Assembly (NCBI RefSeq): GCF_003477605.1
Contig: NZ_QUDR01000001.1
Location: 186,001-250,000 of the forward strand
Source: Clostridium sp. AF37-5
GTDB lineage: Bacteria; Bacillota; Clostridia; Lachnospirales; Lachnospiraceae
Reading direction: 5' to 3'
Length of the DNA stretch: 64,000 nt
This document shows, piece by piece, positions 2,883-21,907 of the stretch. The position numbers and the translations under genes were made by a program. Each line of letters begins with the position of its first letter. Position 1 is the first letter of the stretch. The notes below the pieces were generated by a model. That model did not search any database. It was given only the letters and a program-made list of their open reading frames with translations, and was not told where the DNA came from.

Positions 2883-2904
2883 CACAAACGGAAAGGGGAT
2901 GAAG

Positions 2905-3732: not shown

Positions 3733-3733
3733 T

Positions 3734-6168: not shown

Positions 6169-6191
6169 AAAAACCTCCAAGTTATGAAATA

Positions 6192-6231
6192 TGTATACCT
6201 GCATTCTACTATATGGATTCTCTCTTGTAAA
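6192..6231 (-). promoter_or_regulatory. Promoter of the GH43 gene with a TGTATAC motif near its start site
   Basis: On the minus strand, TTTACA (6226-6231) and TAGAAT (6203-6208) are separated by exactly 17 bp. The motif TGTATAC (6192-6198, plus-strand reading) falls at the expected transcription start, where a repressor could act. The same heptamer occurs next to the divergent promoter. Confidence 0.6.
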
Positions 6232-6302
6232 TACAAAACATTTTTCAAGGGAAAAACAATCATTTTTTAGCAAAAATACATAAAAAAATCTATCAAAAAC
6301 TA

Positions 6303-6359
6303 TGGACATGTTACAAAAATGGTGATATACTTTATAACAAACTGTATACATATTATACA
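6303..6359 (+). promoter_or_regulatory. Promoter and candidate operator of the carbohydrate import operon
   Basis: TGGACA (6303-6308) and TATACT (6326-6331) are separated by 17 bp. Just downstream of the predicted start is a perfect 6-bp inverted repeat, TGTATA-CATAT-TATACA (6343-6359), a typical operator position. The 278-bp space between the two divergent genes (6169-6446) holds this promoter, the GH43 promoter and otherwise AT-rich sequence; I see no small gene in it. Confidence 0.6.
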
Positions 6360-6446
6360 AAAAAACATTATGTGTTTTGCTCCGATGGCTTATTTCACTG
6401 GCAGAATGCATAAAAAGAGAAACAACGAAAGGAGATTGCGACAGCT

Positions 6447-9400
6447 ATGTCAAAGTTGATGAAGAAAAAAGGCTTACGGACATTCTTGATTGTAGTACTG
6501 GTGATTATCGCTTTTGTACTATTTTTCAAGTTAAAAGGTTCTTCCGTAAGTGACAACTCCGACAAGTACGCAGGTGTGGATTTTGACACTATGAACAGCG
6601 AATATCAGCGTGAAGGCCAGTACAGTGATTATGTGGCTAAGCGCACGGACGCCAATACACCAAGTGGTTCCTATGATATTCCGGTTGCCGGTTTCGTGAA
6701 GAAAGAGACAACCAAAAACGTCACTGTACATAATGATCTTGGTCCGGAGAATGAAAAATCAGAATCGGTGTTGATTCCGGAAGGAGAAAGCGCAGTGTAT
6801 TCTGTTAATGTGGAAGAGGAGGGTTATTACAACTTGAACCTTGAGTACTATCCTTCCACAGGAGACAAGGACGACCGAGGAATTGCAATTGAGACCAAGG
6901 TAGAACTTTACAATGAAAAAACGGGTAAATACGAAACTCCATTTAATGGTGCCGAGGGTATTGACTTCGAACGTGTCTACACGGATGATGGCAAACCAAG
7001 CAAGGATAACCAGGGAAATGAGATTCGTCCTTCCCAGATTGAGGATCCGACACGCGGATGGATTTCTTCCTATTTTGAAGACCCAACCGGATATGAGATG
7101 GATCCGTATTACTTCTATTTAAAGAAGGGTGTCAATAAGATTCGCTTAACTGGTGTCAACGAACGTTTGATTATGCGTAAGTTCACAGTAGGTAATATGA
7201 AGAAGATTCCTACCTATGCAGAGTACGCAGCAGAGAACAAAGGAAAGACAAATAACGTTGACAAATCTTACGTTCAGAAGATTCAGGGTGAAAAGTCGGA
7301 CAGACGTTCATCACCATCTTTATATGCTACTTATGACCGTACATCGGGAGATACCGAATACGAGGATGAAAAAGGAAATGTTACCAAGCATAATACAGAC
7401 AAACAGGTTTTGAATGTAATTGGTGGTACACAGTGGAAAGTTGCCGGTGACTGGCTGGAATGGACTACGAAAGTAGAAAAAGAAGGCGATTATGTAATCG
7501 GTATTAAAGGACGTCAGGGATATAACCGTGGTTATATCGCAAACCGTTCTTTGTACATTGACGGAGAGGTTCCTTTTAAAGAGGTAGCTAGTCTGCAATT
7601 TACTTACAGCAATGTTTGGGAAATGCTTTGCTTACAGAATGATAAAGGCGAGGCATACAAATTCCACCTCACTGCTGGAGAACATAAAATTCGTTTGAAA
7701 ATTACACTTGGTGAGCTTGGTGAGTATCTCTCCCAGTTGTCTGAAAGTGTATACCGTATGAATCAGTACTATCGTCAGATTCTTGTATTGACAGGTACAG
7801 AGCCGGATGAGTTCCGTGATTACCAGATTGAAAAAGTATATCCGGATATCATTAAGGCAATGGGCGATGAGTCCAAAATCTTATATCGCTTAGTTGATGA
7901 AGTTACTGCATATACCGGTGAACGTGGTGGTGAAATCGCCGTAGCACAGACACTGGCTGCACAGATGGAAGAGTTTGTTGACCGTCCGGATAAAATTCCT
8001 CAGACGTTATCGAACTTCAAAGAGAATGTATCTTCTCTTGGTACATCAATTAACAACTTAAGTGCAACGGCGATGGATATTGACTATATTGTTCTTGCCG
8101 GCGACAAATCTTCAATTGAAGAAGTAAACGAAGGAAGTTTTGACCGAATTGTACATGAGTGTACATTGTTTATTAACTCCTTCCGTTCCGATTCCTCTGC
8201 ACTTGGTAATGTGTATGATTCGGATGATCCGGATGTTATCGATGTATGGATTACTGCCGGACGTGACCAGAGTAATATTTTGAAGAACATGGTAGATCAG
8301 CAGTTTACTCCGACTTCAAAAGAAACATATGGAAAAGAAATTAAAGTAAATGTTAAATTGATTGATGCTGCAGCGTCAGCAAATACAGTTACAAACTCTG
8401 CCGGTGCGGTAAATGCGATGCTTCCTGCCGTTATGTCAGGTAATGGTCCGGATGTAGCGCTTTGTATTTCGCAGACAGAGCCTGTCAACTACGCACTTCG
8501 TGGTGCGACTGTGGATTTGACCCAGTTCTCGGACTATAAAGATGTACTTTCTGAGTACCAGGCAAGTTCTTATGAGCCTTACTGGTTGAAAGATAAGTCC
8601 GGACATAAAGGTTTGTATGGTCTGCCGGAGACAGAAAACTACAACGTATTGTTCTATCGTACCGATATTATGGAAGAACTTGGTATTGATGCGACACAGA
8701 TTAATACATGGGATGATGTAATCAAAGTACTTCCGAAACTGCAGAAGAACAGCATGTCGTTTGCAATTCCTTCGGTAGAGCGTAAGATTAACAACGCATC
8801 CAACCCTGACCTTGCAAACTACTATGCTCAGCTTGTTCAGCGCGGCGGTTCCTTGTACCGTGATGACGGTATTGAGACAACAATTGGTAGTACAGAAGGT
8901 ATTCAGGCATTTGAATTCTATACCAAATTATTTACCAACTACAAACTGGTTAAACAGTACGATTTCGCAAACCGTTTCCGAAGCGGTGAGATGCCAATCG
9001 GTGTAGCAGATTACAGTACATTTAATACATTGTCTGTATTTGCTCCTGAGATTAAAGGTCTTTGGAACTTCGGTATGGTTCCTGGTGTGAAACAGGAAGA
9101 TGGCTCAATCAACCGTTCCGTTCAGTCATGGGGTACTGCTTCTATGATGCTTAAAGGTGCGGAACAACGTGGCAAGAAAGAAATCGCATGGGATTTCTTG
9201 AAATGGTGGGCAAGTGCTGATACACAGGCTACCTACGCAAGAGAGCTTGAGGCTGTTATGGGTGCTGCGGCACGTTATGCAACAGCAAACAAAGAAACCT
9301 TTAAGACATTGTCTTGGAGCAGCAAAGAGTCCACTGTACTGGATGAACAGCACAAATGGGCATTTGGTATTCCTCAGGTTGCCGGCGGATATTACACAGA

Positions 9401-9566
9401 GCGTCATATCACGAACGCAATCCGTAAAGTCATGAATAACAACGAGGACCCTCGAGAGACGATTCTTGATTATGTTATTACGATAAATAAGGAGTTATCA
9501 AACAAACGTGAAGAGTTTGGGTTGAAGACTCTGGAACAAGAAGAAAAAGAAACAAAACAAAAATAA
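6447..9566 (+). CDS. Large membrane-tethered extracellular solute-binding protein with CBM-like N-terminal domains
   Basis: A 1039-residue protein, more than twice the usual size of a family 1 ABC binding protein. Residues 9-28 form a membrane helix without a lipobox, so the rest should face outward as a tethered protein. Residues about 100-255 and 317-430 look like two beta-sandwich carbohydrate-binding-like domains (for example AVYSVNVEEEGYYNLNLEY and GDWLEWTTKVEKEGDYVIG). A helical linker follows (about 430-590), and then a complete type 1 solute-binding fold (about 593-1010). The RBS aaggaga precedes ATG 6447. The gene heads the import operon directly before a permease pair. The sugar bound is unknown; a xylan fragment is inferred from the neighbours. 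Confidence 0.85.
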   Translation: MSKLMKKKGLRTFLIVVLVIIAFVLFFKLKGSSVSDNSDKYAGVDFDTMNSEYQREGQYSDYVAKRTDANTPSGSYDIPVAGFVKKETTKNVTVHNDLGPENEKSESVLIPEGESAVYSVNVEEEGYYNLNLEYYPSTGDKDDRGIAIETKVELYNEKTGKYETPFNGAEGIDFERVYTDDGKPSKDNQGNEIRPSQIEDPTRGWISSYFEDPTGYEMDPYYFYLKKGVNKIRLTGVNERLIMRKFTVGNMKKIPTYAEYAAENKGKTNNVDKSYVQKIQGEKSDRRSSPSLYATYDRTSGDTEYEDEKGNVTKHNTDKQVLNVIGGTQWKVAGDWLEWTTKVEKEGDYVIGIKGRQGYNRGYIANRSLYIDGEVPFKEVASLQFTYSNVWEMLCLQNDKGEAYKFHLTAGEHKIRLKITLGELGEYLSQLSESVYRMNQYYRQILVLTGTEPDEFRDYQIEKVYPDIIKAMGDESKILYRLVDEVTAYTGERGGEIAVAQTLAAQMEEFVDRPDKIPQTLSNFKENVSSLGTSINNLSATAMDIDYIVLAGDKSSIEEVNEGSFDRIVHECTLFINSFRSDSSALGNVYDSDDPDVIDVWITAGRDQSNILKNMVDQQFTPTSKETYGKEIKVNVKLIDAAASANTVTNSAGAVNAMLPAVMSGNGPDVALCISQTEPVNYALRGATVDLTQFSDYKDVLSEYQASSYEPYWLKDKSGHKGLYGLPETENYNVLFYRTDIMEELGIDATQINTWDDVIKVLPKLQKNSMSFAIPSVERKINNASNPDLANYYAQLVQRGGSLYRDDGIETTIGSTEGIQAFEFYTKLFTNYKLVKQYDFANRFRSGEMPIGVADYSTFNTLSVFAPEIKGLWNFGMVPGVKQEDGSINRSVQSWGTASMMLKGAEQRGKKEIAWDFLKWWASADTQATYARELEAVMGAAARYATANKETFKTLSWSSKESTVLDEQHKWAFGIPQVAGGYYTERHITNAIRKVMNNNEDPRETILDYVITINKELSNKREEFGLKTLEQEEKETKQK

Positions 9567-9581
9567 GAGAGGAGTGAAAAA

Positions 9582-10517
9582 ATGAATTTTCTGGGAAAAT
9601 ACATGCAGATTAAAAAGCGCAATGCTAAAATCGCATGGAAGAAAGCTAAGATGTCAAAGACATGTTACCTTTTCCTTCTGCCGTATTTGATTGTGTTTAC
9701 TGCATTCTACATTTTGCCCGTGCTGATGTCAGTATTTTACAGTTTCACGTACTATAACGTACTGGAACCGGCAAGATTCGTTGGTGTAGACAACTACATC
9801 AACCTGCTTCTTGCAGATGATGTATTCTTGATTGCGGTTAAAAATACATTCTTACTGGCAGCAATTACCGGACCGCTTGGTTATATCATGGCATTTTTGT
9901 TCGCTTGGTTCATCAACGAACTGCCACGTTATATCCGTGCTTTTGCCGTAGTTGTATTCTATGCACCGACAATTTCAGGTCAGGCATACTTAGTATGGTC
10001 TATCTTATTTAGTGGTGATGCATATGGATATGTAAATTCATTTTTGATTAAATTTGGTTTTATCAGTGAGCCGATTCTGTGGCTCACGGATACTGCCTAC
10101 ATGATGAATGTTATTATTATCGTCGTATTGTGGATGAGTCTTGGTCAGGGATTCCTTTCCTTCGTAGCCGGACTTCAAGGTATTGATAATTCGCAGTTTG
10201 AAGCGGGTTATGTGGACGGTGTTAAAAACCGCTGGCAGGAACTTTGGTACATCACACTGCCTGGTATGAAACCTATGCTTCTGTTTGGTGCCGTAATGGC
10301 AATAACACAGACATTCGGTGTCGCCGACCAGACGATGGCGCTTTGTGGTTTCCCTAGTACGGACTACGCGGCGCGTACCGTAGTTACCCATCTGATTGAC
10401 TATGGTACTACACGATTTGAGATGGGTTATGCTTCCGCAATTGCAACAATTTTGTTCGCCGTGATGCTGTTGTTGAATAAGGCAATTCAGTCACTGCTTA
10501 GCAAAGTTGGAACTTGA
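9582..10517 (+). CDS. Sugar ABC transporter permease, MalF/LplB type
   Basis: A 311-residue inner-membrane permease with about six hydrophobic segments. The EAA loop that contacts the ATPase is EAGYVDGVKNRWQELWYITLPG, about 90 residues from the C-terminus. It forms a heterodimer with the next gene product and presumably takes substrate from the large tethered binding protein encoded just upstream. The RBS is aggagtg. No ATPase gene lies nearby, so a shared MsiK/UgpC-type ATPase encoded elsewhere is likely, as is usual for this transporter class in Firmicutes. Confidence 0.92.
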   Translation: MNFLGKYMQIKKRNAKIAWKKAKMSKTCYLFLLPYLIVFTAFYILPVLMSVFYSFTYYNVLEPARFVGVDNYINLLLADDVFLIAVKNTFLLAAITGPLGYIMAFLFAWFINELPRYIRAFAVVVFYAPTISGQAYLVWSILFSGDAYGYVNSFLIKFGFISEPILWLTDTAYMMNVIIIVVLWMSLGQGFLSFVAGLQGIDNSQFEAGYVDGVKNRWQELWYITLPGMKPMLLFGAVMAITQTFGVADQTMALCGFPSTDYAARTVVTHLIDYGTTRFEMGYASAIATILFAVMLLLNKAIQSLLSKVGT

Positions 10518-10534
10518 TAGGAGGTATAGCAAAG

Positions 10535-11398
10535 ATGAAATTAATTAAATTAAAACGAAGAAAACCAAACCGCTCAGTCGGTGGTGATATCGGTATTTAC
10601 ATTTTGCTGATTTTGTTTGGTATCTTCTTTGTACTTCCGTTGGTATATTCCATCAGTAGTGCATTTAAACCGCTGGATGAGATTTATCTGTATCCACCGA
10701 GATTTTTCGTGAAGAACCCAACATTTAATAACTTCCAGGATTTGCTTGTTGTTATGTCAAGCTCCTATGTACCATTTACCCGTTATGTCTTTAACACGGT
10801 ATTTATTACATTGCTTGGTACGGTAGGTCATTTGATTATTGGTTCAATGGCTGCTTATGTTTTGGCAAAGTATGAGTTCCCGGGAAGCAAAAAGATTTTC
10901 AAGATTATTCAGGCTGCAATCATGTTCAATGCTTATGTATTGCAGATTCCTACTTATATCATTATGAGTAAGCTTGGATGGATTGATACGTACTTAGCAC
11001 TGATGGTGCCGGCGTTCGCACTGCCGATGGGATTGTTCCTTATGAAACAGTTTATGGAGCAGATTCCGGATGCATTGATTGAAGCGGCTAAGATTGATGG
11101 TGCGAAAGAGGGAAGAATCTTCCTTCAGATTGTCATGCCTAACGTAAAACCGGCATGGTTGACAGTAACAATTTTCTCTGTACAAAACCTTTGGAACATG
11201 AAAGGTCAGGTGTATATCTACTCGGAAGAATATAAGATGCTGCCATATGCATTGCAGCAGATTATGGCCGGTGGTGTTGCCCGTGCCGGTGTAGGTTCCG
11301 CTGCGACAATGGTCGTTATGATGGTGCCGATTTTAATCTTTATTTTGGCAGAGAGTAACATTCTGGAAACAATGGCTAGTTCCGGAATTAAAGACTGA
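10535..11398 (+). CDS. Carbohydrate ABC transporter permease, MalG/YtcP type
   Basis: A 287-residue partner permease with about six membrane segments and the EAA loop EAAKIDGAKEGRIFLQIVMP. ATG 10535 is preferred over the upstream in-frame ATG 10514 because aggaggt (10519-10525) sits at proper distance from 10535 and the family begins there. The hydrophilic N-terminus (KLIKLKRRKPNRS) fits cytoplasmic-side insertion. With the preceding permease it forms the first of two permease pairs in the locus. Confidence 0.92.
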   Translation: MKLIKLKRRKPNRSVGGDIGIYILLILFGIFFVLPLVYSISSAFKPLDEIYLYPPRFFVKNPTFNNFQDLLVVMSSSYVPFTRYVFNTVFITLLGTVGHLIIGSMAAYVLAKYEFPGSKKIFKIIQAAIMFNAYVLQIPTYIIMSKLGWIDTYLALMVPAFALPMGLFLMKQFMEQIPDALIEAAKIDGAKEGRIFLQIVMPNVKPAWLTVTIFSVQNLWNMKGQVYIYSEEYKMLPYALQQIMAGGVARAGVGSAATMVVMMVPILIFILAESNILETMASSGIKD

Positions 11399-11413
11399 TA
11401 AGGAGGAAAGAAA

Positions 11414-12901
11414 ATGAGAAAAATGAAACGACTTACTTCGGTATTTGCGTTATTACTCGTTGCATCCCTCCTTGTAAGCAACGCGGAGGTCCTCGCGAAC
11501 AGTTCTGATGGCAAACATTATACATATACTTATGATTGCTGGGATGTTGACCGTGAGTCTCCGGATGCTTATTCGGTTGAGCGAGTAATTTCCGGTTCTG
11601 ATTTTAAAGATTGTGGCAACTTTTCTGAGCCACAAGGTCTTTTCTCGACTGGAAATAAGATGTATGTTGCAGATACAGGAAATAATCGTATTTGTGAATT
11701 TACATATGAAAACAATGAGTTTACTTATGTAAAAGAGGTAACCGGTTATAAAGATGCTGAGGGAAAAGATGTAAAATTGAATGGTCCTCAGGATGTATTT
11801 GTAACAGATGATGGACAAATGTACATTGCCGATACCGGTAATAACAAAATTGTTCACTTGGATGCAGACGGCAATATGGTAAAAGTAATTGGTCGTCCAA
11901 ATGATAAAACCTATACGGATGCAAAATTTCTCCCACAAAAGTTAGTTGTGGATGGTGCAAAACGTATTTTTGCTCAGGTTCAGAACGTAAACAAAGGTTT
12001 CCTTGAGTTTGATGACGCCGGAGACTTTACGGGATTTGTCGGAGCCAGTGAAGTAACTTATGATTTCTTTACTTATTTGTGGAAAATGGTTGCTACAAAA
12101 GAGCAGCGTGCACAGATGGATTTGTTCGTTCCGACAGAGTATTCGAACCTTTGTCTGGATTCCGAAGACTTCATTTATGCAACAATCAGTACATTTGATG
12201 GAGCTGTAGAGTCGGCTGAACCGATTCGTAAATTGAATGCAAAGGGAACTGACATTTTGGTACGTAACGGTTACAATGATCCATATGGTGATTTGCGTTA
12301 CACCGAAAAAGGCGAGATGAAAGGACCTTCCAAGTTTGTAGATATCTGCTGCTTGTCAAATGATGTTTATTATGCACTGGATAATACAAAAGGCCGTATC
12401 TTTGCTTATGATTTCCAGGGTAATATGCTGTATGCCTTTGGCGGACATGGTTATAAAGCCGGATTGTTTATGAATCCTTCGGCAATTGAAGATCTTGGAG
12501 ATTCTCTCTTGGTTACAGATCAGAAGTTAGGAACGATTACCCAGTTTACTTTGACTGATTATGGTAAAATGATTAACGATGGCCTGGCTGAGTACAAGAA
12601 AGGTAATTATGATGAATCCGCTAATATCTGGCGTGAAGTTCTGAAGCATAATGGTAACTACGACCAGGCATATATTGGAATCGGCCGTGCACTTCTTCGT
12701 GAGAAGAATTATAAAGAGGCAATGAATTACTTTGAATTAAAACTTGATGCCAAGAATTATTCTAAAGCATTTAAGCTTTACCGAGAGGTTTGGTTTGAGG
12801 AGAACATTGGTACGATCTTGATTATTATTGCAATCCTCATTCTCCTTGGATTTGGTGTTGGATTTGTGAAGAAAGCCAGAAGGGAGGTTGAAAAAGGATG
12901 A
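11414..12901 (+). CDS. NHL-repeat beta-propeller/TPR protein, exported, C-terminal membrane anchor
   Basis: A 495-residue protein. Residues 1-28 are a signal peptide. Residues about 50-385 contain NHL-type repeats (PQGLFSTGNKMYVADTGNNRI, PQDVFVTDDGQMYIADTGNNKI) expected to form a beta-propeller. Two TPR-like units follow (about 390-455: GLAEYKKGNYDESANIW, GIGRALLREKNYKEAMNYF). A single hydrophobic helix (about 465-487) precedes a basic tail, which predicts an extracellular propeller held in the membrane. The RBS is aaggagg. It overlaps the next gene by 4 bp, so translation is coupled. Its function is not known to me; NHL propellers usually bind proteins, RNA or glycans, which suggests a scaffold role. 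Confidence 0.8.
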   Translation: MRKMKRLTSVFALLLVASLLVSNAEVLANSSDGKHYTYTYDCWDVDRESPDAYSVERVISGSDFKDCGNFSEPQGLFSTGNKMYVADTGNNRICEFTYENNEFTYVKEVTGYKDAEGKDVKLNGPQDVFVTDDGQMYIADTGNNKIVHLDADGNMVKVIGRPNDKTYTDAKFLPQKLVVDGAKRIFAQVQNVNKGFLEFDDAGDFTGFVGASEVTYDFFTYLWKMVATKEQRAQMDLFVPTEYSNLCLDSEDFIYATISTFDGAVESAEPIRKLNAKGTDILVRNGYNDPYGDLRYTEKGEMKGPSKFVDICCLSNDVYYALDNTKGRIFAYDFQGNMLYAFGGHGYKAGLFMNPSAIEDLGDSLLVTDQKLGTITQFTLTDYGKMINDGLAEYKKGNYDESANIWREVLKHNGNYDQAYIGIGRALLREKNYKEAMNYFELKLDAKNYSKAFKLYREVWFEENIGTILIIIAILILLGFGVGFVKKARREVEKG

Positions 12902-13563
12902 AAATAAAAGAAAGACTGACCAATAAAGATGCATGGATTCGTTACCGCGATTCTCTGCGTTATGCCCTTCATTGTATCGTAAGACCTTTTGATGGTTTTT
13001 GGGATTTGACACATGAAAAGAGAGGGTCTATGGCGGCAGCCAATACAATTGTTATTCTGGTCCTTTTGACAAACCTGATTAAATTAGGTGCAACCAGTTT
13101 CGTGTTTAATCCGGTAAACTGGGATAAGGTAAACCTGATTTTAGAGATTGCAACATTCCTTGTACCATTTATTGTGTATGTTGTTGCAAACTGGTGTCTT
13201 ACCACCTTGTTTGATGGTAAAGGTACATTAAAAGATATATGGATGGGTACCGCTTATGCAATGACACCATATGTAATTATTCAGTTGATACTGATTCCTA
13301 TGAGTAACGTTGTTACTGAAGAAGAGGGTGCATTTTACACTGTGTTCAGCAACTTCTCCATGATTTGGTGTGGATTGCTGATTATCGCATCTGTAATGAT
13401 GATTCATGACTTCATGCTGGGTAAAGCATTTTTATCTTTGATTTTCTCAGCGGTAGGTATGTTGATTATCGTATTTTTGCTTGTACTGTTCTTCAGTTTG
13501 ATTAGTGATGGTTTCTCCTATTTCTATTCGATTTACAAAGAAACCATTTTCCGAATGTATTGA
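12898..13563 (+). CDS. YIP1-family integral membrane protein
   Basis: A 221-residue protein with a hydrophilic N-terminal segment (KIKERLTNKDAWIRYRDSLRYALHCIVRPFDGFWDL) and about five membrane helices from residue 45 on, the layout of YIP1 domain proteins. PFDGFWDLTHEKRGS is the characteristic entry into the first helix. Its ATG overlaps the stop of the NHL gene (ATGA), and the DUF5696-like gene starts 20 bp downstream, so the three are translationally linked. The bacterial role of YIP1 proteins is unclear; here it may hold the NHL and lipoprotein partners together at the membrane. Confidence 0.75.
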   Translation: MKIKERLTNKDAWIRYRDSLRYALHCIVRPFDGFWDLTHEKRGSMAAANTIVILVLLTNLIKLGATSFVFNPVNWDKVNLILEIATFLVPFIVYVVANWCLTTLFDGKGTLKDIWMGTAYAMTPYVIIQLILIPMSNVVTEEEGAFYTVFSNFSMIWCGLLIIASVMMIHDFMLGKAFLSLIFSAVGMLIIVFLLVLFFSLISDGFSYFYSIYKETIFRMY

Positions 13564-13583
13564 TGAAAGGAGGAAATGACAGA

Positions 13584-16175
13584 ATGAAAAACAAGTTGTA
13601 TTTGCTCCTGATTACAGTTATGGCGTGTTTCGCTCTTAGTGCCTGCGGTGATTCCGATGAGGGTACGAAAGAGATGAAAACTTATGAGTATGACAACAGC
13701 GGAGATGTAGTAATTGAAAATGATTCATTGAAACTCTCAGTGAGTGGTTCTTCCACACAGCTTGAGGTTACAGACAAGGCAACCGGAAAGGTATATCGTT
13801 CCAATCCGACCGCTGAGGATGTAGAGAAGTATGCAAATGCCGATGGACATTACAAAGATGTGTTAAGCTCAACTTTGAACCTTACTTACTCCAACAGTAC
13901 TGATACGAAGAAAGAGATTGATAACTACTCTCAGTGTATTCGGGACAATAAGTTTTATAAAATCGAGAAAGTAAACGATAACGAAATTAAAGTAAGTTAT
14001 TCCGTAGGTGATTTTGAAAAAACCTACACTTGTCCGGTCGCAATCAAAGAGTCCAGAATGAAGAAGTATCTGGATAAGATGTCAAGATCGGCACAGAAGT
14101 CAGCACTCAGAAGTTATGTTTATTTTAACTATGAGGAACTTAGTAAGTCGGATGATTCTACCGACAAGCAGCTGTTGACAAAAGGTGAAAAACTTTTCCC
14201 TGACTTGAAGGATGAGCCAATTTATTATTTGGATGAGTCGGTTACCGATTCCCGTCTTCAGCAGTTGGAAGACAAATTCGTAGAAGCAGGATATACTTTG
14301 GAGGACCGTACAAAAGATATGGGCAATTACAAAGTATCCCGTAACGAAGGGAAACCAATTTTCGATATTAGTGTTCACTATGTATTGGAAGATAACCAGC
14401 TGGTTGTAAAAGTACCGATGAAGGAAATCTCCTACAACGAAGATTATCCGATTGTTAAACTTCAGGTTCTTCCATATATGGGAGCATCAAATGTTGATGA
14501 AAAAGGTTACATGATTGTTCCGGAAGGAACCGGTGGAAAAATTAACTTCAACAATGGTAAGACCGGACAGCAGAGATATCAGAGTGATGTTTACGGCTGG
14601 GATTATGGTCAGGCACGAACAACGATTGTCGATGAGACAAAATCCAATTTCCCACTGCTTGCCATTGCAAATGAGACTACCCAGAGTTCATTCCTTTGTG
14701 TTGCTGAAGAGGGAAGTTCTTACGCAACCGTTCAGGCGGATATTTCAGGAAAGAACAATGGATATAACTATAGTACATTCATTTACAGTCTGATTCACGG
14801 CGAAAACATGGATGTATCCACAAAATCGGATACAACCGTTCGTGTTTATGAAGACGGGCTGCCAAATGAAACACTTTCCCAGAGATACATTTTCTCTGAT
14901 AAAACCGATTATTCGGATTTGGCAAAAGAGTACCGCGGATATCTTCAGAAGAAATATCCAAGTCTTGGTAAAGTTGACAGTGATAAACAGGCATTGGCTG
15001 TTGAGATGATTGGTGCCGTAGATGATACCGAGCATATCCTTGGTTATCCGGTTGTTCGCTCTCAGTCATTGACTTCTTACACACAGGCCAAATCGATTTT
15101 GGAAGATTTGCAGAAAGCCGGCATTGGTAATATTAATGCGAAGTATACCGGATGGTTTAATACCGGTGTGAAACAGACATCTGCTGCTAAAGTAAAAACA
15201 GTAGGACGTTTGGGAAGTTCTTCAGATTTGGAAGATTTGACTGCTTATGCAAATAAGACAAATGGTATGCAGCTTTATCTGAATGGTACATTTAACTATG
15301 TATACAAAGACAAATGGTTTGACGGATTCAGTTCCACAAGAAATGCAGCGAAGTTTGTCAGCCGTGAAGAGTGTGAGCTTTATAACTGGGATCCAATTAC
15401 TTACCAGGCAAATGATGATTACACCGATTATCATAATTACGATAGTTATTACTTGGTAAAACCGTCGTATGCAATGGATTCGGTTGACACTTATGTAGAA
15501 AAAGTAAATGGTTACGGCAGCAAGAATATCGGTATGGAAGATATCGGTAATACACTTGCCGGTGACTACAATCCAAAAGACAGAGTATCGCGTGAAGCAG
15601 CTTTGAATCTTCAGGTTAAGAAATTACAGTCACTGAAACAGGGCGGAAACAAGGTTATGATTACAAGTGGTAACCAGTATGCAGTACCTTACGCAGACTT
15701 CGTTACAGACATGAACTTAGATGCCCGTGCCGTAAACATCATTGATGAGCAGGTTCCATTCTATACCATGGCATTGCATGGTTTAGTAAATTACTCCGGC
15801 GGTGCAATTAACTTGGCAGATGATGAGAAGGAGAATATCCTGAAGTCCGCTGAGTCCGGTGCCGGATTATACTTCACTTACATTGCTGAAAAGACAAGTG
15901 TTTTACAGGATGGTAAGTACACAAGATACTATGCTTGTAACTACGATGACTGGAAGAAAGATACTTTGAGTCTGTATAACAAGTTTAATGAAACATTCGA
16001 AGGAACATACGATAAAGCAATTGATAAGCATGAAAAAATTGCAGAGGGCGTATATAAGACAACCTTCGAAGGCGGAAAAGCAGTTGTTGTAAACTACAAC
16101 TATAGCAACTATCAATATAATGGCCAGGAAATCGCGGCCAGAGATTTCGCAGCTGTGAAGGGAGGTGAAGAATAA
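13584..16175 (+). CDS. Large DUF5696-like surface lipoprotein
   Basis: An 863-residue protein with a lipoprotein signal (lipobox LSAC, Cys at about residue 20). The central part (VPEGTGGKINFNNGKTGQQ, then SDVYGWDYG) recalls the conserved core of DUF5696 proteins. The following region (about 480-790), with AGIGNINAKYTGWFNTG and a stretch rich in acidic and aromatic residues (WDPITYQANDDYTDYHNY), looks like an alpha/beta barrel of the glycosidase kind, but I cannot name catalytic residues with confidence. ATG 13584 is chosen because of aaaggagga 10 nt upstream. It sits at the outer face between two permease pairs. It could process or present the transported glycan; this is inference. Confidence 0.72.
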   Translation: MKNKLYLLLITVMACFALSACGDSDEGTKEMKTYEYDNSGDVVIENDSLKLSVSGSSTQLEVTDKATGKVYRSNPTAEDVEKYANADGHYKDVLSSTLNLTYSNSTDTKKEIDNYSQCIRDNKFYKIEKVNDNEIKVSYSVGDFEKTYTCPVAIKESRMKKYLDKMSRSAQKSALRSYVYFNYEELSKSDDSTDKQLLTKGEKLFPDLKDEPIYYLDESVTDSRLQQLEDKFVEAGYTLEDRTKDMGNYKVSRNEGKPIFDISVHYVLEDNQLVVKVPMKEISYNEDYPIVKLQVLPYMGASNVDEKGYMIVPEGTGGKINFNNGKTGQQRYQSDVYGWDYGQARTTIVDETKSNFPLLAIANETTQSSFLCVAEEGSSYATVQADISGKNNGYNYSTFIYSLIHGENMDVSTKSDTTVRVYEDGLPNETLSQRYIFSDKTDYSDLAKEYRGYLQKKYPSLGKVDSDKQALAVEMIGAVDDTEHILGYPVVRSQSLTSYTQAKSILEDLQKAGIGNINAKYTGWFNTGVKQTSAAKVKTVGRLGSSSDLEDLTAYANKTNGMQLYLNGTFNYVYKDKWFDGFSSTRNAAKFVSREECELYNWDPITYQANDDYTDYHNYDSYYLVKPSYAMDSVDTYVEKVNGYGSKNIGMEDIGNTLAGDYNPKDRVSREAALNLQVKKLQSLKQGGNKVMITSGNQYAVPYADFVTDMNLDARAVNIIDEQVPFYTMALHGLVNYSGGAINLADDEKENILKSAESGAGLYFTYIAEKTSVLQDGKYTRYYACNYDDWKKDTLSLYNKFNETFEGTYDKAIDKHEKIAEGVYKTTFEGGKAVVVNYNYSNYQYNGQEIAARDFAAVKGGEE

Positions 16176-17090
16176 ATGGCTCGCAAGAATAAAAAGAAAA
16201 AGACATTAGCATTTAAAAATGCGGTTGCAGGCTATTTATTTATTGCACCATTCATCATCGGTTTTATCCTGTTCTTGGTTGTGCCGTTAGTACAATCCTT
16301 AAGAATGAGTTTCAGTACGGTAGAACTTGAAGGTGGATTGTCCATGACATGGGCGGGACTTGAAAATTACCGTCAGGCATTTTTGGTAGATGAGAAGTTT
16401 GTACCAAACCTCATTTCTGAGTTGGTAAAAATGCTGACAAACGTTCCGGCAACACTGATTTTCAGTTTCTTTATTGCGTTACTTTTGAATCAGTCTTTCA
16501 AAGGAAGAGGTGCGGTTCGTGCGATATTCTTCCTGCCGGTTATTCTTTCATCCGGTGTTATTGTTGGTTTGGAAAGTGGAAATACACTTTTGGCTGACAT
16601 GAAAGATGCGATTGAAGCAACAAACAATAATACAAGTATTACAGGTGTACTTGAGAGTATCCTGATTACATCAGACTCAAGTCCGATGTCACAGATGTTT
16701 AGTTATGTATTTGATATTATTAATAGTGTATATGATATTGCGATTGCATCTGGTATCCAGATTATCATTTTCCTTTCTGCATTGCAGACGATTTCGCCAA
16801 GTATGTTCGAGGCGGCAAAAATCGAGGGATGTACAGCCTGGGAAAGTTTCTGGAAGATTACACTTCCAATGGTAAGTTCCATGATTTTGGTAAATATCGT
16901 ATATACGGTAATTGACTTCTTCTTGAAGACAGACAACACAGTTATGGAGCGTATCGATGCAATCGGTATCGGTGGACGAATGGACTATGGTCAGGCGTCG
17001 GCGATGGCGTGGGTATATTTCCTTTGTGTAATTGTTGCGTTGGGTATTGTTTCGTTGATTATTTCTAGGAGGGTATATTATTATGAGTAA
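16176..17090 (+). CDS. Sugar ABC transporter permease, MalF/LplB type (second pair)
   Basis: A 304-residue permease with about six membrane segments and the EAA loop EAAKIEGCTAWESFWKITLPM. The RBS gggaggtg lies 9 nt before ATG 16176, inside the end of the lipoprotein gene, which it abuts without a gap. Compared with the usual family it carries a longer periplasmic-side loop (about residues 125-175, rich in Asn/Ser/Thr). It overlaps the next gene by 8 bp. Confidence 0.92.
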   Translation: MARKNKKKKTLAFKNAVAGYLFIAPFIIGFILFLVVPLVQSLRMSFSTVELEGGLSMTWAGLENYRQAFLVDEKFVPNLISELVKMLTNVPATLIFSFFIALLLNQSFKGRGAVRAIFFLPVILSSGVIVGLESGNTLLADMKDAIEATNNNTSITGVLESILITSDSSPMSQMFSYVFDIINSVYDIAIASGIQIIIFLSALQTISPSMFEAAKIEGCTAWESFWKITLPMVSSMILVNIVYTVIDFFLKTDNTVMERIDAIGIGGRMDYGQASAMAWVYFLCVIVALGIVSLIISRRVYYYE

Positions 17091-18075
17091 AATGAGTAAG
17101 TTTAAAGCCTTCAGGGAACGTAATAGAAAATCCAACGGCTATCTGTTGCGCAAGGTATCCTTTAATGTAGCTTACAAAATCGTGCGTTTTGTATTGTTGT
17201 TTGGATTGTGTTTCTTGATTTTGCAGCCACTCTTAAATAAGATTTCCATTAGTTTTATGGAAGAGCGTGATTTGTACGATTCGACAATCAACGTAATTCC
17301 ACGTCACTTCACATTGGATAACTTTAAGATTGCCGCTGATTTGATGGATTATTGGGCTGCTTTAGGTAACACATTATGGATTTCTTTATTGGTAAGTGTT
17401 TTGCAGATTATATCCTGTACATTAGTTGGATACGGTTTTGCGAGATACAAATTCCCATTGAAGAACCTTTGGTTTGCAATGGTGGTACTTGTTATCGTTA
17501 TTCCACCTTCAACCATTCAGTCTTCCCTGTATTTGAATTTCCGTTATTTTGATATTCTCGGAATATTCAGCCTGATAACGGGGCAGCCACTGAACTTATT
17601 GGATTCCTTTGCACCATACGCATTTATGTGTCTTGGATGTATGGGATTGAAAAATGGTTTGTACATTTACATGCTTCGTCAGTTCTTCCGTGGTATTCCG
17701 AAGGAATTGGAAGAAGCTGCTTATGTAGATGGATGTGGTAAGGTTAAAACATTCGTGCGTATTATGCTGCCGGATGCAAAACCAATGATTACATCATGTT
17801 TCCTGTTCTCCTTTGTATGGCAGTGGACGGATAGTTTTTATTCAGGAATGTTTCTTCCAAACTATTCGATTCTGGCAAACAAAGTGGCTCGTTTGTCTGA
17901 GGTGCTGAACTCTTATGTGAAAGCAACCACTGGTCTTGATAAAGCGTCGACCGCTTATGCATCCGCCATGATTGGTACAGGTACATTGTTGGTAATTATT
18001 CCTTTGATTGTTGTATATTTATTTGCACAGAAGGGCTTCGTAGAAAGTTTGAGCCAGTCTGGTATCAAGATGTAA
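17083..18075 (+). CDS. Carbohydrate ABC transporter permease, MalG/YtcP type (second pair)
   Basis: A 330-residue permease with six membrane segments and the EAA loop EEAAYVDGCGKVKTFVRIMLP. It is slightly longer than the first-pair partner because of a basic N-terminal extension (KFKAFRERNRKSNG). The RBS taggaggg is followed by ATG 17083 inside the end of the upstream permease gene. It works with the preceding permease and most likely with the binding lipoprotein encoded 125 bp downstream. Confidence 0.92.
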   Translation: MSKMSKFKAFRERNRKSNGYLLRKVSFNVAYKIVRFVLLFGLCFLILQPLLNKISISFMEERDLYDSTINVIPRHFTLDNFKIAADLMDYWAALGNTLWISLLVSVLQIISCTLVGYGFARYKFPLKNLWFAMVVLVIVIPPSTIQSSLYLNFRYFDILGIFSLITGQPLNLLDSFAPYAFMCLGCMGLKNGLYIYMLRQFFRGIPKELEEAAYVDGCGKVKTFVRIMLPDAKPMITSCFLFSFVWQWTDSFYSGMFLPNYSILANKVARLSEVLNSYVKATTGLDKASTAYASAMIGTGTLLVIIPLIVVYLFAQKGFVESLSQSGIKM

Positions 18076-18087
18076 CAAAAATAATTT

Positions 18088-18164
18088 GCCCTATTTGGCA
18101 TCTGCCTGTTTTGGCAGGTGCCGTTGGGCAGTAATGACTTAGGTTATCACCGGGATTTTCCGGT
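18088..18164 (+). promoter_or_regulatory. Strong intergenic stem-loops before the binding-protein gene
   Basis: GGCATCTGCC (18097-18106) pairs with GGCAGGTGCC (18113-18122) with one G-U pair and a 6-nt loop. Outer arms GCCC (18088-18091) and GGGC (18126-18129) extend it. A smaller hairpin, ACCGG-GATTTT-CCGGT, follows at 18149-18164. No T-run follows either, so this looks more like an mRNA-stabilising or processing structure than a terminator. Confidence 0.6.
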
Positions 18165-18200
18165 ATAGCAATATATTATATAATAAGGAGGCAAAACAAA

Positions 18201-19634
18201 ATGAAAGCAAGCATGCAGAAGCTGATTGCGATGGGTCTTTGTGTTGTTCTTGCAGTAGGTTCTCTTACTGGATGTGGTGGCTCCTCCAATGATGCAGGTA
18301 GTGCATCGGGCGATGGCGCAAAAACATCATCTTCTTCAAACAAGAAAACATTTAGTGACCTTGGTGGCATGGATATCACGGTAGGTGACTGGTATACTTC
18401 CAAAGATACCCTTGCAGACAGAACCGACGAGTTTGGTAAAAAGCAGAATGAGTACTGGAAGAGTATTCAGGAGAAGTACAATTTCAAAATTACTCGTGAT
18501 TCTGTTTATTCCTATACAGATGCAAAATCAGATTATGTAAATGACGTTATGGCAAGTAGTCCAAAATACGAAATTTACTATCTGTATCAGGAATTTGTTT
18601 CTGAGCCTTTGATGAAAGGCTTGATGTATGATTTGTCAACTCTTCCGGAGTTCAATTTCGATGAAGAAAAATGGAACCCAACAGTTAAAGAGTTGATGAG
18701 CATTGGTGATGGTATCTGGGGTATGAGCCCAGACAGTGAGCCACGTGGTGGTATTTTCTACAATAAACGTCTCTTCAAGGAAGCTGGTATTCCGGAAGAT
18801 GAGCCATATGATTTGCAGAAAAACAATCAGTGGACATGGGACAAGTTCGAAGAGTATTGTAAGAAACTTACAAAGGATACCGATGGTGATGGTAAAACAG
18901 ACCAGTATGCTATGGCAAGTTTCTCAAAATACTATCTGCCAATGTGTGCAGCTAACAACAATGCAACATTTGTATCTCGTGACAAAGACGGTAAATACGT
19001 TGATGCAATTACATCCAAAGAGTTCAAAGATGCTATGAACTGGGGTGTTGACTTGATTAAGAAAGGTTATATTAAGCCAAAACCATCAGAAAACGTAGCA
19101 TGGGATTGGTATAAAGCTGCATTCCGTGATGGCGAAGCTGCTATGCAGACTGCTGAGGTTTATGAGATTAGTGCGTTTGCTGATATGGAAGATGACTGGG
19201 GATTCGTAATGTTCCCATACAACCAGGATCAGAAGGGTGCTACAAATAAGACAGTACCAAACGACAACATCGTTGTTATGCCAAGCTGCTTCGATCAGGA
19301 AAAAGCTGAGAAGATTGCATTTGCTTACGATTTGTACACAGAGCCTGTTGAAGGATATACTCCTCATGATCAGATTCTTGAGCAGTATTACCCACAGTTC
19401 AGAGATGACCGTGCAGTAGATGAAACAATCGCTATGATGTTGGAAGAGAAGCATAAATCTACTTCTTATCTGCCAATGATTAGTGAAATCGACTATGGTG
19501 ATTTCTGTTATCCTGTATATGCAAATGCAACAACACCTGCTAAGAAGATTGAAGAGCTTTCAACCAAATGGGATACGAAGATTAGCAAAGTTAATGCTGA
19601 GTATGAGAAGTTTGCAAAAGAGCATACAAAATAA
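18201..19634 (+). CDS. Extracellular solute-binding lipoprotein (LplA-like, family 1)
   Basis: A 477-residue ABC binding protein with a lipoprotein signal (LTGCGG, Cys near residue 25), a Ser/Asn/Gly-rich tether, and then the two-lobed binding fold. Motifs include DGIWGMSPDSEPRGGIFYNKRLF and DTDGDGKTDQYAMASFSKYY, common in oligosaccharide-binding proteins of this family. The RBS aaggaggc lies 9 nt before ATG 18201. Its position after the second permease pair, with a stem-loop in between, fits the usual need for more binding protein than permease. Aldouronate or xylo-oligosaccharide binding is inferred from the neighbouring GH67 and GH43 genes. Confidence 0.92.
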   Translation: MKASMQKLIAMGLCVVLAVGSLTGCGGSSNDAGSASGDGAKTSSSSNKKTFSDLGGMDITVGDWYTSKDTLADRTDEFGKKQNEYWKSIQEKYNFKITRDSVYSYTDAKSDYVNDVMASSPKYEIYYLYQEFVSEPLMKGLMYDLSTLPEFNFDEEKWNPTVKELMSIGDGIWGMSPDSEPRGGIFYNKRLFKEAGIPEDEPYDLQKNNQWTWDKFEEYCKKLTKDTDGDGKTDQYAMASFSKYYLPMCAANNNATFVSRDKDGKYVDAITSKEFKDAMNWGVDLIKKGYIKPKPSENVAWDWYKAAFRDGEAAMQTAEVYEISAFADMEDDWGFVMFPYNQDQKGATNKTVPNDNIVVMPSCFDQEKAEKIAFAYDLYTEPVEGYTPHDQILEQYYPQFRDDRAVDETIAMMLEEKHKSTSYLPMISEIDYGDFCYPVYANATTPAKKIEELSTKWDTKISKVNAEYEKFAKEHTK

Positions 19635-19666
19635 TAACAAAAAGAAACAGGTAATTTAGTTTCATG

Positions 19667-19713
19667 GGGCTGTTCAGAATAAGCGAAAGCTTTGTTTTGT
19701 ACAGCCCTTTCTT
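19667..19713 (+). terminator. Terminator after the import operon
   Basis: GGGCTGT (19667-19673) pairs with ACAGCCC (19701-19707), followed by TTTCTT. A second small stem, AAGC-GAAA-GCTT (19681-19692), lies in the loop. It separates the import genes from the aguA transcription unit. Confidence 0.65.
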
Positions 19714-19739
19714 AAAATCTGAAGATTGAAAATTAGGGA

Positions 19740-19769
19740 TTGAAAAACCATTTATATATAGATTATAAT
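19740..19769 (+). promoter_or_regulatory. Promoter of aguA-uxuA-uxuB
   Basis: TTGAAA (19740-19745) and TATAAT (19764-19769) are separated by 18 bp, in the 237-bp gap after the binding-protein gene. The predicted start site is near 19776, which leaves a leader of about 95 nt before aguA. Confidence 0.65.
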
Positions 19770-19786
19770 AATAAAGTCATAAGGCT

Positions 19787-19813
19787 ATGCTATAACTTGA
19801 ATTGTTGTAGCAT
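19787..19813 (+). promoter_or_regulatory. Inverted repeat in the aguA leader
   Basis: ATGCTATAAC (19787-19796) and GTTGTAGCAT (19804-19813) form a 10-bp stem with one G-U pair and a 7-nt loop, starting about 10 nt after the predicted transcription start. No T-run follows. It could be a repressor operator or a leader hairpin. Confidence 0.5.
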
Positions 19814-19871
19814 TTATGGTAACTTATTAAAGACAATTGATTTAAAACCTGATGAATAAGAGGAGAAACAG

Positions 19872-21839
19872 ATGGATTATAGCAGATGCTGGCTGGATTA
19901 TCAGCCCGTAGATACAATTGAAAAAGAATGGCTGACATATTTTCAATCCTGTGAGGGAGAAATCGTAGAAAGTGCTATTAGTGAATACAAACTTGCTATG
20001 GAAAATATGGCAGGAAAAGTTCCTCAGTTAGTAAAAAAAGAAGAGGCAGGCGTGGTATTTTCCGTGGATTCTTCTATAAAAGAGGGAAAAGACGGATATA
20101 TTATCACGAAAGAGGAGAGCCGGTATCAGATTACCGGGAAGTCAGAGAGCGGACTGTTATATGGTGTATTCCATTTTCTTCGTTTGATTCGTACTAACAG
20201 TCTTGACAGTCTTCCGGTGCATAATAAACCGGAAATGCCGCTTCGCATGATGAATCACTGGGATAACATGGATGGCAGCATCGAGAGAGGTTATTCGGGG
20301 GAATCTTTTTTCTACAAGGATTACGAAATTTTATGGAATGAGCGCATTGTGCAGTATGTGAGAATGATGGCATCAATTGGGATCAATGCGATTGTAATCA
20401 ATAATGTTAATGTTCATGAGAATGAGACTTATTTGATCACGGACCGTTATTTGCAGCAAGTAAAACAATATGCCGACTTGTTTGCAAAATATGGAATTAA
20501 ATTGTATACAAGTGTAAATTTTGCTGCGCCGATGGAGTTAGATGGTTTTACGGATTGTGACCCATTAAATCCTATGGTAGCAGACTGGTGGAAAAAAACG
20601 GTGTCACATGTGTATGAGGTGATTCCAAACTTTGGAGGCTTTTTGGTAAAGGCAGATTCTGAGGGAAGACCGGGACCATTTACGTATGGAAGAACACATG
20701 CAGATGGAGCTAATATGTTAGGTAAGGCACTTGCTCCGTATGGCGGAATTTTAGTATGGCGCTGCTTCGTATATAATTGCGGGCAGGACTGGCGTGATAA
20801 AAAGACAGATCGTGCCAGAGCGGCATATGACAACTTTATAGAATTAGATGGAAACTTTGATGACAATGTTATTTTACAGATAAAAAACGGACCGATGGAT
20901 TTCCAGGTGCGTGAGCCGGTTTCACCGTTGTTTGGCGGCTTGAAAAAGACCAACATGATTTTGGAAGTGGAGATTGCACAGGAATACACCGGACAGCAGA
21001 TTGATTTGTGTTATCTGCTCCCGATGTGGCGTGAAATTCTTGACTTTGATACGTATGCTGCTGGCGAAGGTTCAACCGTGCAGAAAATTGTAGATGGCTC
21101 TGTTTATGGACAGCATTTGTGTGGTATGGCAGCTGTTATTAATACTGGTAATGACTATAATTGGACCGGAAATGATTTAGCGGCAGCAAACACTTACGGC
21201 TATGGAAGATTGGCGATGAATCCGTCCGAAGATTCGGCGGTTATTGCAAAAGAATGGGCAGAACTTACCCTTCCTAAATCGCTTTCCGACGGCGTCGTTT
21301 CGATGCTTATGAAGTCCTGGTCCACATATGAAAAGTATACGTCTCCGCTAGGTATTGGCTGGATGGTGACACCGCATTATCATTACGGACCGGATATTGA
21401 CGGATATGAGTATGACCGCTGGGGAACTTATCACAGAGCGGATAGAAATGGTCTGGGTGTTGACCGTACACCAAATGGTACCGGCTATACAACTCAGTAT
21501 AATGAGCCGTGGTGCACAAAGTATGCAGATAAAAAACAGTGCCCACAGGAGCTTTTGTTATTTTTCCATTATGTCCGCTATGATGAAGTGTTATCTTCAG
21601 GGAAAACACTGATTCAGCATATATATGACACGCATTTTGAGGGTGTTAATGAAGTGGAAGAAATGATTGCTGGTTGGAAGGCATGGAAAGAGGAGATGGC
21701 AGAGGATGTCTATGAGAGAGTCCTTTCCCGCATGGAGAGACAGCTTTCTAATGCAATCGAATGGAGAGACCGCGTAAATACATATTTTTACCGGAAGAGT
21801 GGAGTAAAAGATGCACTTTCCCGAAAAATATATGAATAG
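19872..21839 (+). CDS. aguA: GH67 alpha-glucuronidase
   Basis: A 655-residue enzyme of family GH67 that removes (4-O-methyl-)D-glucuronic acid from the non-reducing end xylose of aldouronic acids. Candidate catalytic residues are Glu264 (KADSEGRPGP, acid), Asp343 (GPMDFQVREP) and Glu371 (IAQEYTG). Their spacings of 79 and 28 residues match the Geobacillus enzyme as I remember it (E285, D364, E392). The N-terminal domain (about 1-130) and TIM barrel are both present; length is slightly below the usual 680-700. There is no signal peptide, so it acts in the cytoplasm on imported oligosaccharides. It is followed by uxuA after 68 bp. Confidence 0.95.
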   Translation: MDYSRCWLDYQPVDTIEKEWLTYFQSCEGEIVESAISEYKLAMENMAGKVPQLVKKEEAGVVFSVDSSIKEGKDGYIITKEESRYQITGKSESGLLYGVFHFLRLIRTNSLDSLPVHNKPEMPLRMMNHWDNMDGSIERGYSGESFFYKDYEILWNERIVQYVRMMASIGINAIVINNVNVHENETYLITDRYLQQVKQYADLFAKYGIKLYTSVNFAAPMELDGFTDCDPLNPMVADWWKKTVSHVYEVIPNFGGFLVKADSEGRPGPFTYGRTHADGANMLGKALAPYGGILVWRCFVYNCGQDWRDKKTDRARAAYDNFIELDGNFDDNVILQIKNGPMDFQVREPVSPLFGGLKKTNMILEVEIAQEYTGQQIDLCYLLPMWREILDFDTYAAGEGSTVQKIVDGSVYGQHLCGMAAVINTGNDYNWTGNDLAAANTYGYGRLAMNPSEDSAVIAKEWAELTLPKSLSDGVVSMLMKSWSTYEKYTSPLGIGWMVTPHYHYGPDIDGYEYDRWGTYHRADRNGLGVDRTPNGTGYTTQYNEPWCTKYADKKQCPQELLLFFHYVRYDEVLSSGKTLIQHIYDTHFEGVNEVEEMIAGWKAWKEEMAEDVYERVLSRMERQLSNAIEWRDRVNTYFYRKSGVKDALSRKIYE

Positions 21840-21907
21840 GATGATTTAGACAAGGTCATTCGTAACATAATAAGAAAATATAATAATAAGAAAAGAGGTT
21901 ATTGATT

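Follow-up and report, generated by a model that had tools for sequence, protein, structure and literature searches.

A nine-gene carbohydrate import module in Clostridium sp. AF37-5 and its conserved core of NHL-YIP1, DUF5696 and permease genes

A block of nine genes (6447..19634, + strand) was analyzed within a 64,000-nucleotide stretch of the Clostridium sp. AF37-5 genome (assembly GCF_003477605.1, contig NZ_QUDR01000001.1, positions 186,001 to 250,000), hereafter called the window. The block encodes two sugar importers of the ATP-binding cassette (ABC) type and three further proteins placed between them. That the nine genes form one unit acting jointly is well supported: gene order, phylogenetic profile and gene fusion agree, which places the block far beyond chance. 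The invariant core of this unit is composed of the NHL-YIP1 genes, the DUF5696 gene and the second permease pair, with importer 1 as a frequent but exchangeable partner. Our favored interpretation, held with moderate confidence, is a capture-and-relay chassis at the cell surface that handles oligosaccharides from plant cell walls, in which a scaffold and a glycan receptor would serve two ABC importers. Little is known of how Gram-positive gut bacteria keep long glycans at their surface so that ABC importers can take them up. For a group important in fibre fermentation, the core supplies identified genes, a naturally fused protein and what may be a repurposed glycosidase.

Gene order, co-occurrence and fusion

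The nine open reading frames (ORFs) occurred in the order SBPbig-P1A-P1B-NHL-YIP1-DUF5696-P2A-P2B-SBP2. The first, SBPbig, encodes a membrane-tethered giant binding protein of 1039 amino acids (6447..9566; Pfam SBP_bac_8) and is followed by the two permeases of importer 1, P1A (9582..10517; BPD_transp_1) and P1B (10514..11398; BPD_transp_1; listed with a TTG start, in-frame ATG at 10535). The three middle genes encode an NHL beta-propeller and TPR protein (11414..12901; Pfam NHL and TPR), a YIP1-domain membrane protein with five predicted transmembrane (TM) segments (12898..13563; Pfam Yip1, 6e-12), and a lipoprotein with a predicted GH129-like fold, 863 amino acids long from its ATG (13584..16175; Pfam DUF5696, 8e-185). 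Importer 2 comprises P2A, a divergent permease (16176..17090; BPD_transp_1 below the Pfam cut-off, UgpA as best NCBIfam match, also below cut-off), the second permease P2B (17083..18075; BPD_transp_1; UgpE/MalG as best NCBIfam match, below cut-off), and SBP2, a sugar-binding lipoprotein of 477 amino acids (18201..19634) which had no Pfam hit and matched the solved arabino-oligosaccharide-binding protein 6rjy by phmmer (8e-14).

An earlier sequence-only reading of this DNA had described nine same-strand genes in this order, and the ORFs and Pfam searches confirmed it; Pfam and NCBIfam similarities agreed with its gene names, the permeases matching NCBIfam models only below cut-offs. Its statement that no ATPase is encoded among the nine genes was borne out by Pfam and NCBIfam searches. 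The tight spacing that it described held in part. NHL/YIP1 and P2A/P2B overlapped by 4 bp and 8 bp, and P1A/P1B by 4 bp if the TTG is the P1B start. Two corrections apply: DUF5696 most likely starts at the ATG at 13584, 20 bp past the end of YIP1 (the ORF list has a TTG at 13560), and a 125 bp gap ahead of SBP2 leaves this gene less tightly joined. A promoter and terminator scan of 6000-20000 was uninformative (38 and 10 sites, compared with 38.9 and 9.2 in shuffled sequence).

Two sets of loci were compared with the window. Set 1 was comprised of the top 80, ranked by DUF5696 similarity, out of at least 577 relatives on contigs from one genome per species, and included Lachnospiraceae, other Clostridia and Treponema. 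Set 2 drew 40 loci from the 45 above-cut-off DUF5696 matches listed, covering 25 of 26 genomes and including several paralogues; genome G010, already present in set 1, was left out, and no DUF5696 protein was common to both sets. Gene order was assigned from ORF calls and from profiles built on set-1 loci.

At testable upstream positions of set-1 loci the expected gene was found as follows: SBPbig 67/68, P1A 70/71, P1B 67/72, NHL 77/78, and YIP1 76/78. Downstream, the counts were 80/80 for P2A, 77/77 for P2B, and 70/73 for SBP2. Altogether, 54 of 81 loci, including the window, had all nine genes complete and in exact order (46/81 with a cruder choice of ORFs); the others were mostly affected by contig-end cuts or ORF-calling errors. 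The median NHL-YIP1 spacing was -4 bp, with an overlap in 34 of 46 loci, and P2A and P2B overlapped in all 46. Distance matrices of the nine genes correlated at 0.70-0.93; these values lack a species background and were not counted as proof.

Co-occurrence was measured in 299 Bacillota_A genomes chosen around G010, a genome that carries the module. In 26 of them, G010 included, DUF5696 was found above the Pfam cut-off; seven genomes with matches under the cut-off were not scored as carriers. The module YIP1 model, at 1e-10, matched 27 genomes, namely the 26 DUF5696 carriers and G224 (a weak match of 51.6 bits). The NHL-TPR model, at 300 bits or more, matched exactly the 26 carriers; outside them it reached 190 bits for a fragment in G256 and at most 70.1 bits for the rest of the matches listed. 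Fisher p values for co-occurrence with DUF5696, uncorrected for kinship, were 1.4e-36 (YIP1) and 5e-38 (NHL-TPR). Rare co-occurrence of the middle genes with the importers, which would have spoken against one system, is strongly contradicted, and the claim of a single unit is supported. The G256 fragment lies on contig C103 (locus L205) of a genome with no DUF5696 or YIP1 match and could be due to an incomplete assembly or be a relic.

Set 2 repeated this picture for the core. NHL lay upstream of DUF5696, with or without YIP1 between them, in 40 of 40 loci, and P2A-P2B lay directly 3' of DUF5696 in all 38 loci where no contig end intervened. A single fused NHL-YIP1 gene was seen in 28 of 40 loci and separate genes in 11; at the remaining locus (L126) ORF calling overlooked YIP1, which the genome search recovered. 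In the fusions the YIP1 part is C-terminal to the NHL part. One fused NHL-YIP1 protein had 588 relatives, named ones including Limnochordia and Halanaerobiales, and PF04893 was present in all 120 among the matches listed.

Two points weigh against a fixed nine-gene unit. The profiles were trained on set-1 loci, making set 2 the fairer test, and no more than 17 of 40 set-2 loci had SBPbig-P1A-P1B immediately upstream of the core, with SBPbig directly after P2B in three more. Because pair 2 follows in 38/38 loci and SBPbig-P1A-P1B precedes in only 17/40, importer 1 falls outside the invariant core. The earlier proposal that both importers belong to the system holds for pair 2 and is not supported as stated for importer 1. 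The absence of importer 1 beside the core in many set-2 loci is also what would be seen if two ordinary sugar ABC operons were neighbours by chance and the genes separating them were unrelated. This explanation was rejected, with next to no probability left to it, by the agreement of the three families in the genomes they occupy, an order fixed across two phyla, and the fusion.

The module was found in Treponema as well as in Clostridia. Full-length DUF5696 was present in 3 of 149 Spirochaetota genomes; a fourth above-cut-off match (L167, 27.3 bits) was an alpha-amylase. Overall, the core tracks as a unit across two phyla, beside several kinds of plant-polysaccharide enzymes. At least ten YIP1-model matches were found in each of four of the 299 genomes. 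Many such matches were seen in five genomes of 2-3 Mb (G053, G075, G095, G148, and G178; at least ten in four of them and eight in G178), mostly in fused frames of about 700 residues or more; these copies are a lineage-specific expansion.

Predicted roles of importers, scaffold and DUF5696 protein

SBPbig was predicted to contain a TM helix (residues 5-31), two beta-sandwiches (75-249 and 275-419), a helix bundle (424-539), and a sugar-binding domain (approximately 592-1026). Fold-search matches were confined to the sugar-binding part, and the folds given for the N-terminal domains are tentative. In the proposed mechanism the TM-tethered SBPbig, with its sugar-binding domain above the helix bundle and the two beta-sandwiches, would catch an oligosaccharide and pass it to permease pair 1. 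SBP2, with a lipobox-like motif in 57 of 69 set-1 copies, would serve permease pair 2.

All 91 P1A sequences from complete module copies had an EAA-type coupling loop, as did 87/88 P1B, 102/116 P2A (14 off the loop pattern), and 114/114 P2B sequences. An OB_MalK-type ATPase domain was found in 12 of 13 genomes carrying relatives (the genome of the window was not among the 13). Most likely, both importers use a shared MsmX/MsmK-type ATPase of the cell. The missing ATPase was also considered as a sign of a non-ABC function, which was rejected on the EAA-type loops kept in most permease copies.

The NHL-TPR protein contained hydrophobic segments at residues 10-28 (N-terminal signal or TM) and 467-485 (C-terminal TM), and the YIP1 protein contained five. 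The NHL propeller, TPR and YIP1 parts would form a membrane scaffold between the importers, with the propeller outside, and would keep the GH129-fold DUF5696 lipoprotein by the importers, above all by pair 2. TPR and Yip1 domains elsewhere belong to scaffold or membrane-shaping families, and the fusion puts both in one polypeptide. Both points also suit chaperone-like assembly or membrane-organizing factors for importer 2 and DUF5696 which make no contact with the glycan. This alternative is improbable: many paralogues occur per genome (at least ten YIP1-model matches in four genomes), each next to a DUF5696 locus of its own in the 40 set-2 loci, which suggests a cargo-specific role over a general assembly role.

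Propellers and inactive glycosidase folds can also act as sensory domains, and among flank proteins AraC-type regulators ranked second in group size (23, of which 21 were upstream). The core might accordingly act as an extracellular glycan sensor or regulatory module, controlling the importers or the whole locus, and not as an import subunit. Pfam found no cytoplasmic signalling domain in the window NHL-TPR, YIP1 or DUF5696 proteins, and the constant partner of the core in the 38 testable set-2 loci was P2A-P2B and not a regulator, which makes a sensor quite improbable.

The predicted fold of the DUF5696 protein was that of GH129, with a beta-sandwich, a (beta/alpha)8 barrel and an Ig-like domain. 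The comparison structures were GH129 NagBb (5wzn, 5wzp, 5wzq, and 5wzr) and GH129-like DagB (5opq and 8rzk), whose authors put DagB outside GH129 proper in describing 5opq (PMC5698469). DUF5696 proteins differ from both in being about 200 residues longer, in lying in an importer operon, and in their catalytic positions. Profile A1 was built from the window protein and 45 of 120 homologues among the matches listed (282 found); profile A2 matched 5opq at 1.5e-15 and 5wzq at 2.4e-7, both significant. The Pfam GH129 model (PF11308) did not match the window protein, in which only PF18952 was found up to E 0.1. A search with PF11308 found 0 of 249 Bacillota_A genomes and was also silent in 14 of 14 controls, and was thus uninformative. 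The C-terminal half of the barrel matched only two nanobodies among PDB sequences, both by chance.

Catalytic positions were compared in an alignment of 120 DUF5696 proteins: the 80 of set 1, 39 of the 40 of set 2 (L163 runs off its contig), and the window protein, with residue numbers starting at window position 13581, one codon ahead of the ATG. Residue D654, presumed to correspond to NagBb D435 and DagB D486 from a weak alignment that runs via a DUF6259 protein, was Asp in 91 of 120 sequences, the window protein included, and another residue in 29. It is tentatively preferred as the nucleophile position because of that DUF6259 alignment; the strand count in the model permits another register (beta4, 622-626, ending in Lys/Ser/Arg). 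Position 695, which aligned weakly to the second catalytic acid (DagB E517/E531), was acidic in 20 of 120 sequences, and together with D654 in 11. As aligned, the 120 proteins do not consistently retain the GH129 catalytic pair.

The preferred role for DUF5696 is a receptor that would bind and orient the glycan en route to the importer, perhaps trimming it through an active site distinct from the GH129 one. Several findings weigh against this reading. D654 plus an acid anywhere in 694-699 occurred in 60 of 120 sequences (the acid at 699 in 42; none in the window protein), and an active site could still be built from the near-invariant acids D341, D662, D722 and E758. In addition, DagB and NagBb have just one catalytic residue in common (PMC5698469), so losing the GH129 pair does not prove that catalysis is lost. 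Anchoring may also vary, given that a simple lipobox was found in 35 of 80 set-1 and 8 of 39 set-2 proteins; this count is probably too low for close relatives, in which Cys22 occurred in 43 of 46.

These residues, together with the GH129 fold, the profile homology, D654 in the window protein and the GH129 label given to the corresponding gene in Caldicellulosiruptor bescii (C. bescii; PMC8579813), could instead indicate an active surface glycosidase, GH129-like with a partly relocated acid, that trims before import while NHL-YIP1 is merely an anchor. This reading is rather unlikely. D654 is replaced in 29 of 120 proteins and is paired with an acid at 695 in only 11, the window protein lacks a PF11308 match, and a single activity is hard to fit to the GH43/67, GH26, GH28, GH42, and GH31 contexts. 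The suggestion that the module "perhaps processes" its glycan stays tentative, since this GH129-fold protein lacks a consistently conserved catalytic pair.

DUF6259 proteins at L120, L121 and L170 were weakly similar to DUF5696 along part of the barrel, hinting at a related glycosidase-like family. Four short above-cut-off DUF5696 matches were checked and proved to be three DUF6259 proteins and one alpha-amylase.

Cargo and genomic neighbourhood

The module is preceded by a divergent gene for a GH43 beta-xylosidase-type enzyme (4591..6411, - strand; Pfam Glyco_hydro_43 and GH43_C2), whose listed ORF probably begins about 80 codons too far upstream. It is followed on the + strand by genes for a GH67 alpha-glucuronidase (19872..21839; Pfam GH67 N, M and C domains), the mannonate dehydratase UxuA (21902..22978; Pfam UxuA), and a mannitol-dehydrogenase-family protein (22992..24596; Pfam Mannitol_dh and Mannitol_dh_C), probably a fructuronate reductase because the UxuA gene adjoins. 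Together these four are the usual set for methylglucuronoxylan oligosaccharides. The cargo in the window genome would thus be a glucuronoxylan oligosaccharide, processed by GH43, GH67 and UxuA. Glucuronoxylan as the cargo is not secure, given that in C. bescii glucuronoxylan oligosaccharides were assigned to another transporter, BxgLFG (PMC8579813).

At least one of GH67, GH10 and GH43 was found in the flanks of 49 of 80 set-1 loci and of only 9 of 40 set-2 loci; the flanks are short, and these counts are lower bounds. Flank proteins were sampled with Pfam from 74 of 153 eligible set-2 ORFs and 66 of 361 eligible set-1 ORFs, drawn at random and then thinned by hand without a strict rule (mainly cut or opposite-strand ORFs), so the tallies describe variety and not frequencies. 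The set-1 sample contained GH10, GH67, GH3, GH43, UxuA and GDSL enzymes, and the set-2 sample contained GH43, GH10, GH42, GH31, GH26, GH28, GH5 and beta-helix proteins. One locus, L132, had a GH26 with CBM35 and a LacI regulator. Because the neighbour enzymes differ between copies, the chassis is reused with different enzyme sets. The xylan-derived cargo first proposed fits the GH43, GH67 and UxuA neighbours in the window; a xylan-only system as a general rule was rejected, as more distantly related copies lay beside GH26, GH28, GH42, GH31 and GH5. No sugar regulator was found among the scanned neighbours of the window copy.

On one side, the module with its enzymes is bordered by spoIIGA and a sigma factor gene (2899-4480), and on the other by an opposite-strand sigma factor gene (24696-25475); we take the two sigma factors to be SigE and SigG. 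Similar sigma factors flanked the module in relatives, in a cluster of 11 including those of the window (six upstream and five downstream), which suggests that this sporulation region is an insertion site common to these genomes. At L035, L037 and L038 an HlyD-type protein and a large FtsX-type permease followed the module, suggesting an exporter or MacB-type system beside the importer; relatives of the FtsX-type protein occurred in 9 of 80 set-1 loci. Ten ORFs scanned between 33381 and 60449 included FliF, FliG, FliH, a FliI-type ATPase, a hook/rod protein, FliM, FliN/CheC, FlhB, and a CheA-like protein. The host is probably motile, because flagellar and chemotaxis genes are present in the right half of the window.

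Comparison with known systems

The locus type already has a published example. The C. bescii xylan degradation locus Athe_0174-0185 contains the operon xloEFG-X-GH129-axoFGE-xynF-...; proximal genes of the locus were about 10- to 100-fold up on xylan compared with cellobiose, and deletion of the shared ATPase MsmK impaired growth on xylan (PMC8579813). To call the system undescribed was therefore too strong. Like the module in the window, this operon runs binding protein, permease, permease, X, GH129, permease, permease, binding protein, and then xylan enzymes, with CUT1 importers and no ATPase of their own; the match is to the published gene string only, with the subunit letters E, F and G read in the usual way. 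It differs in having a single X gene at the position filled by two genes in the window, as expected if X were an NHL-YIP1 fusion, and the available text of the paper gives no function to X or to the GH129-labelled gene. Counted from Athe_0174, Athe_0181 would be AxoE, the counterpart of SBP2; a review cites Athe_0181 as a noncatalytic protein that helps lignocellulose hydrolysis (PMC10492685).

Other CUT1 importers with a shared ATPase (Bacillus subtilis MsmX, PMC7658222; C. bescii MsmK, PMC8579813) likewise have no local ATPase; unlike the window, the systems in the available text of these papers have no NHL-YIP1-DUF5696 core and no 1000-residue tethered binding protein. The likeness of the window to CUT1 lies in its binding proteins and in permease pairs with EAA-type loops. 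We know of no such core or tethered binding protein in the rest of the CUT1 literature. Gram-positive polysaccharide utilization loci (gpPULs) of Lachnospiraceae also combine glycan enzymes and an ABC transporter in one locus, in gut bacteria such as Roseburia that have no SusCD, and the main text of that paper, as far as available, contained neither "NHL" nor "YIP1" (PMC5320581). A gpPUL includes a regulator as well; AraC-type regulators lay beside relatives of the module, and no sugar regulator was among the window neighbours scanned.

Among open-licence texts in PubMed Central (PMC), DUF5696 was not found, nor were YIP1, solute-binding protein and NHL together, nor "NHL repeat" alongside Roseburia, glucuronoxylan and ABC transporter. 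YIP1 with xylan and permease appeared there in a fungal paper, and YIP1 with carbohydrate ABC transporter in a review of eukaryotic YIPF proteins. On the conserved core, X as NHL-YIP1 and the DUF5696 catalytic positions, nothing was found in these texts.

The SusC/SusD pairs of Bacteroidota have a conserved core, swapped enzymes and many paralogues per genome, and the module is like them in this. It differs in having ABC-type importers and no TonB porin, and no homology is claimed. More tentatively, the module may be a Gram-positive and spirochaete uptake machine, with an NHL-TPR-YIP1 scaffold, a repurposed GH129-fold receptor and a dedicated permease pair, that is the functional counterpart of SusCD. 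If so, it would be a core present in many copies in some genomes, with enzyme sets swapped to suit different plant polysaccharides.

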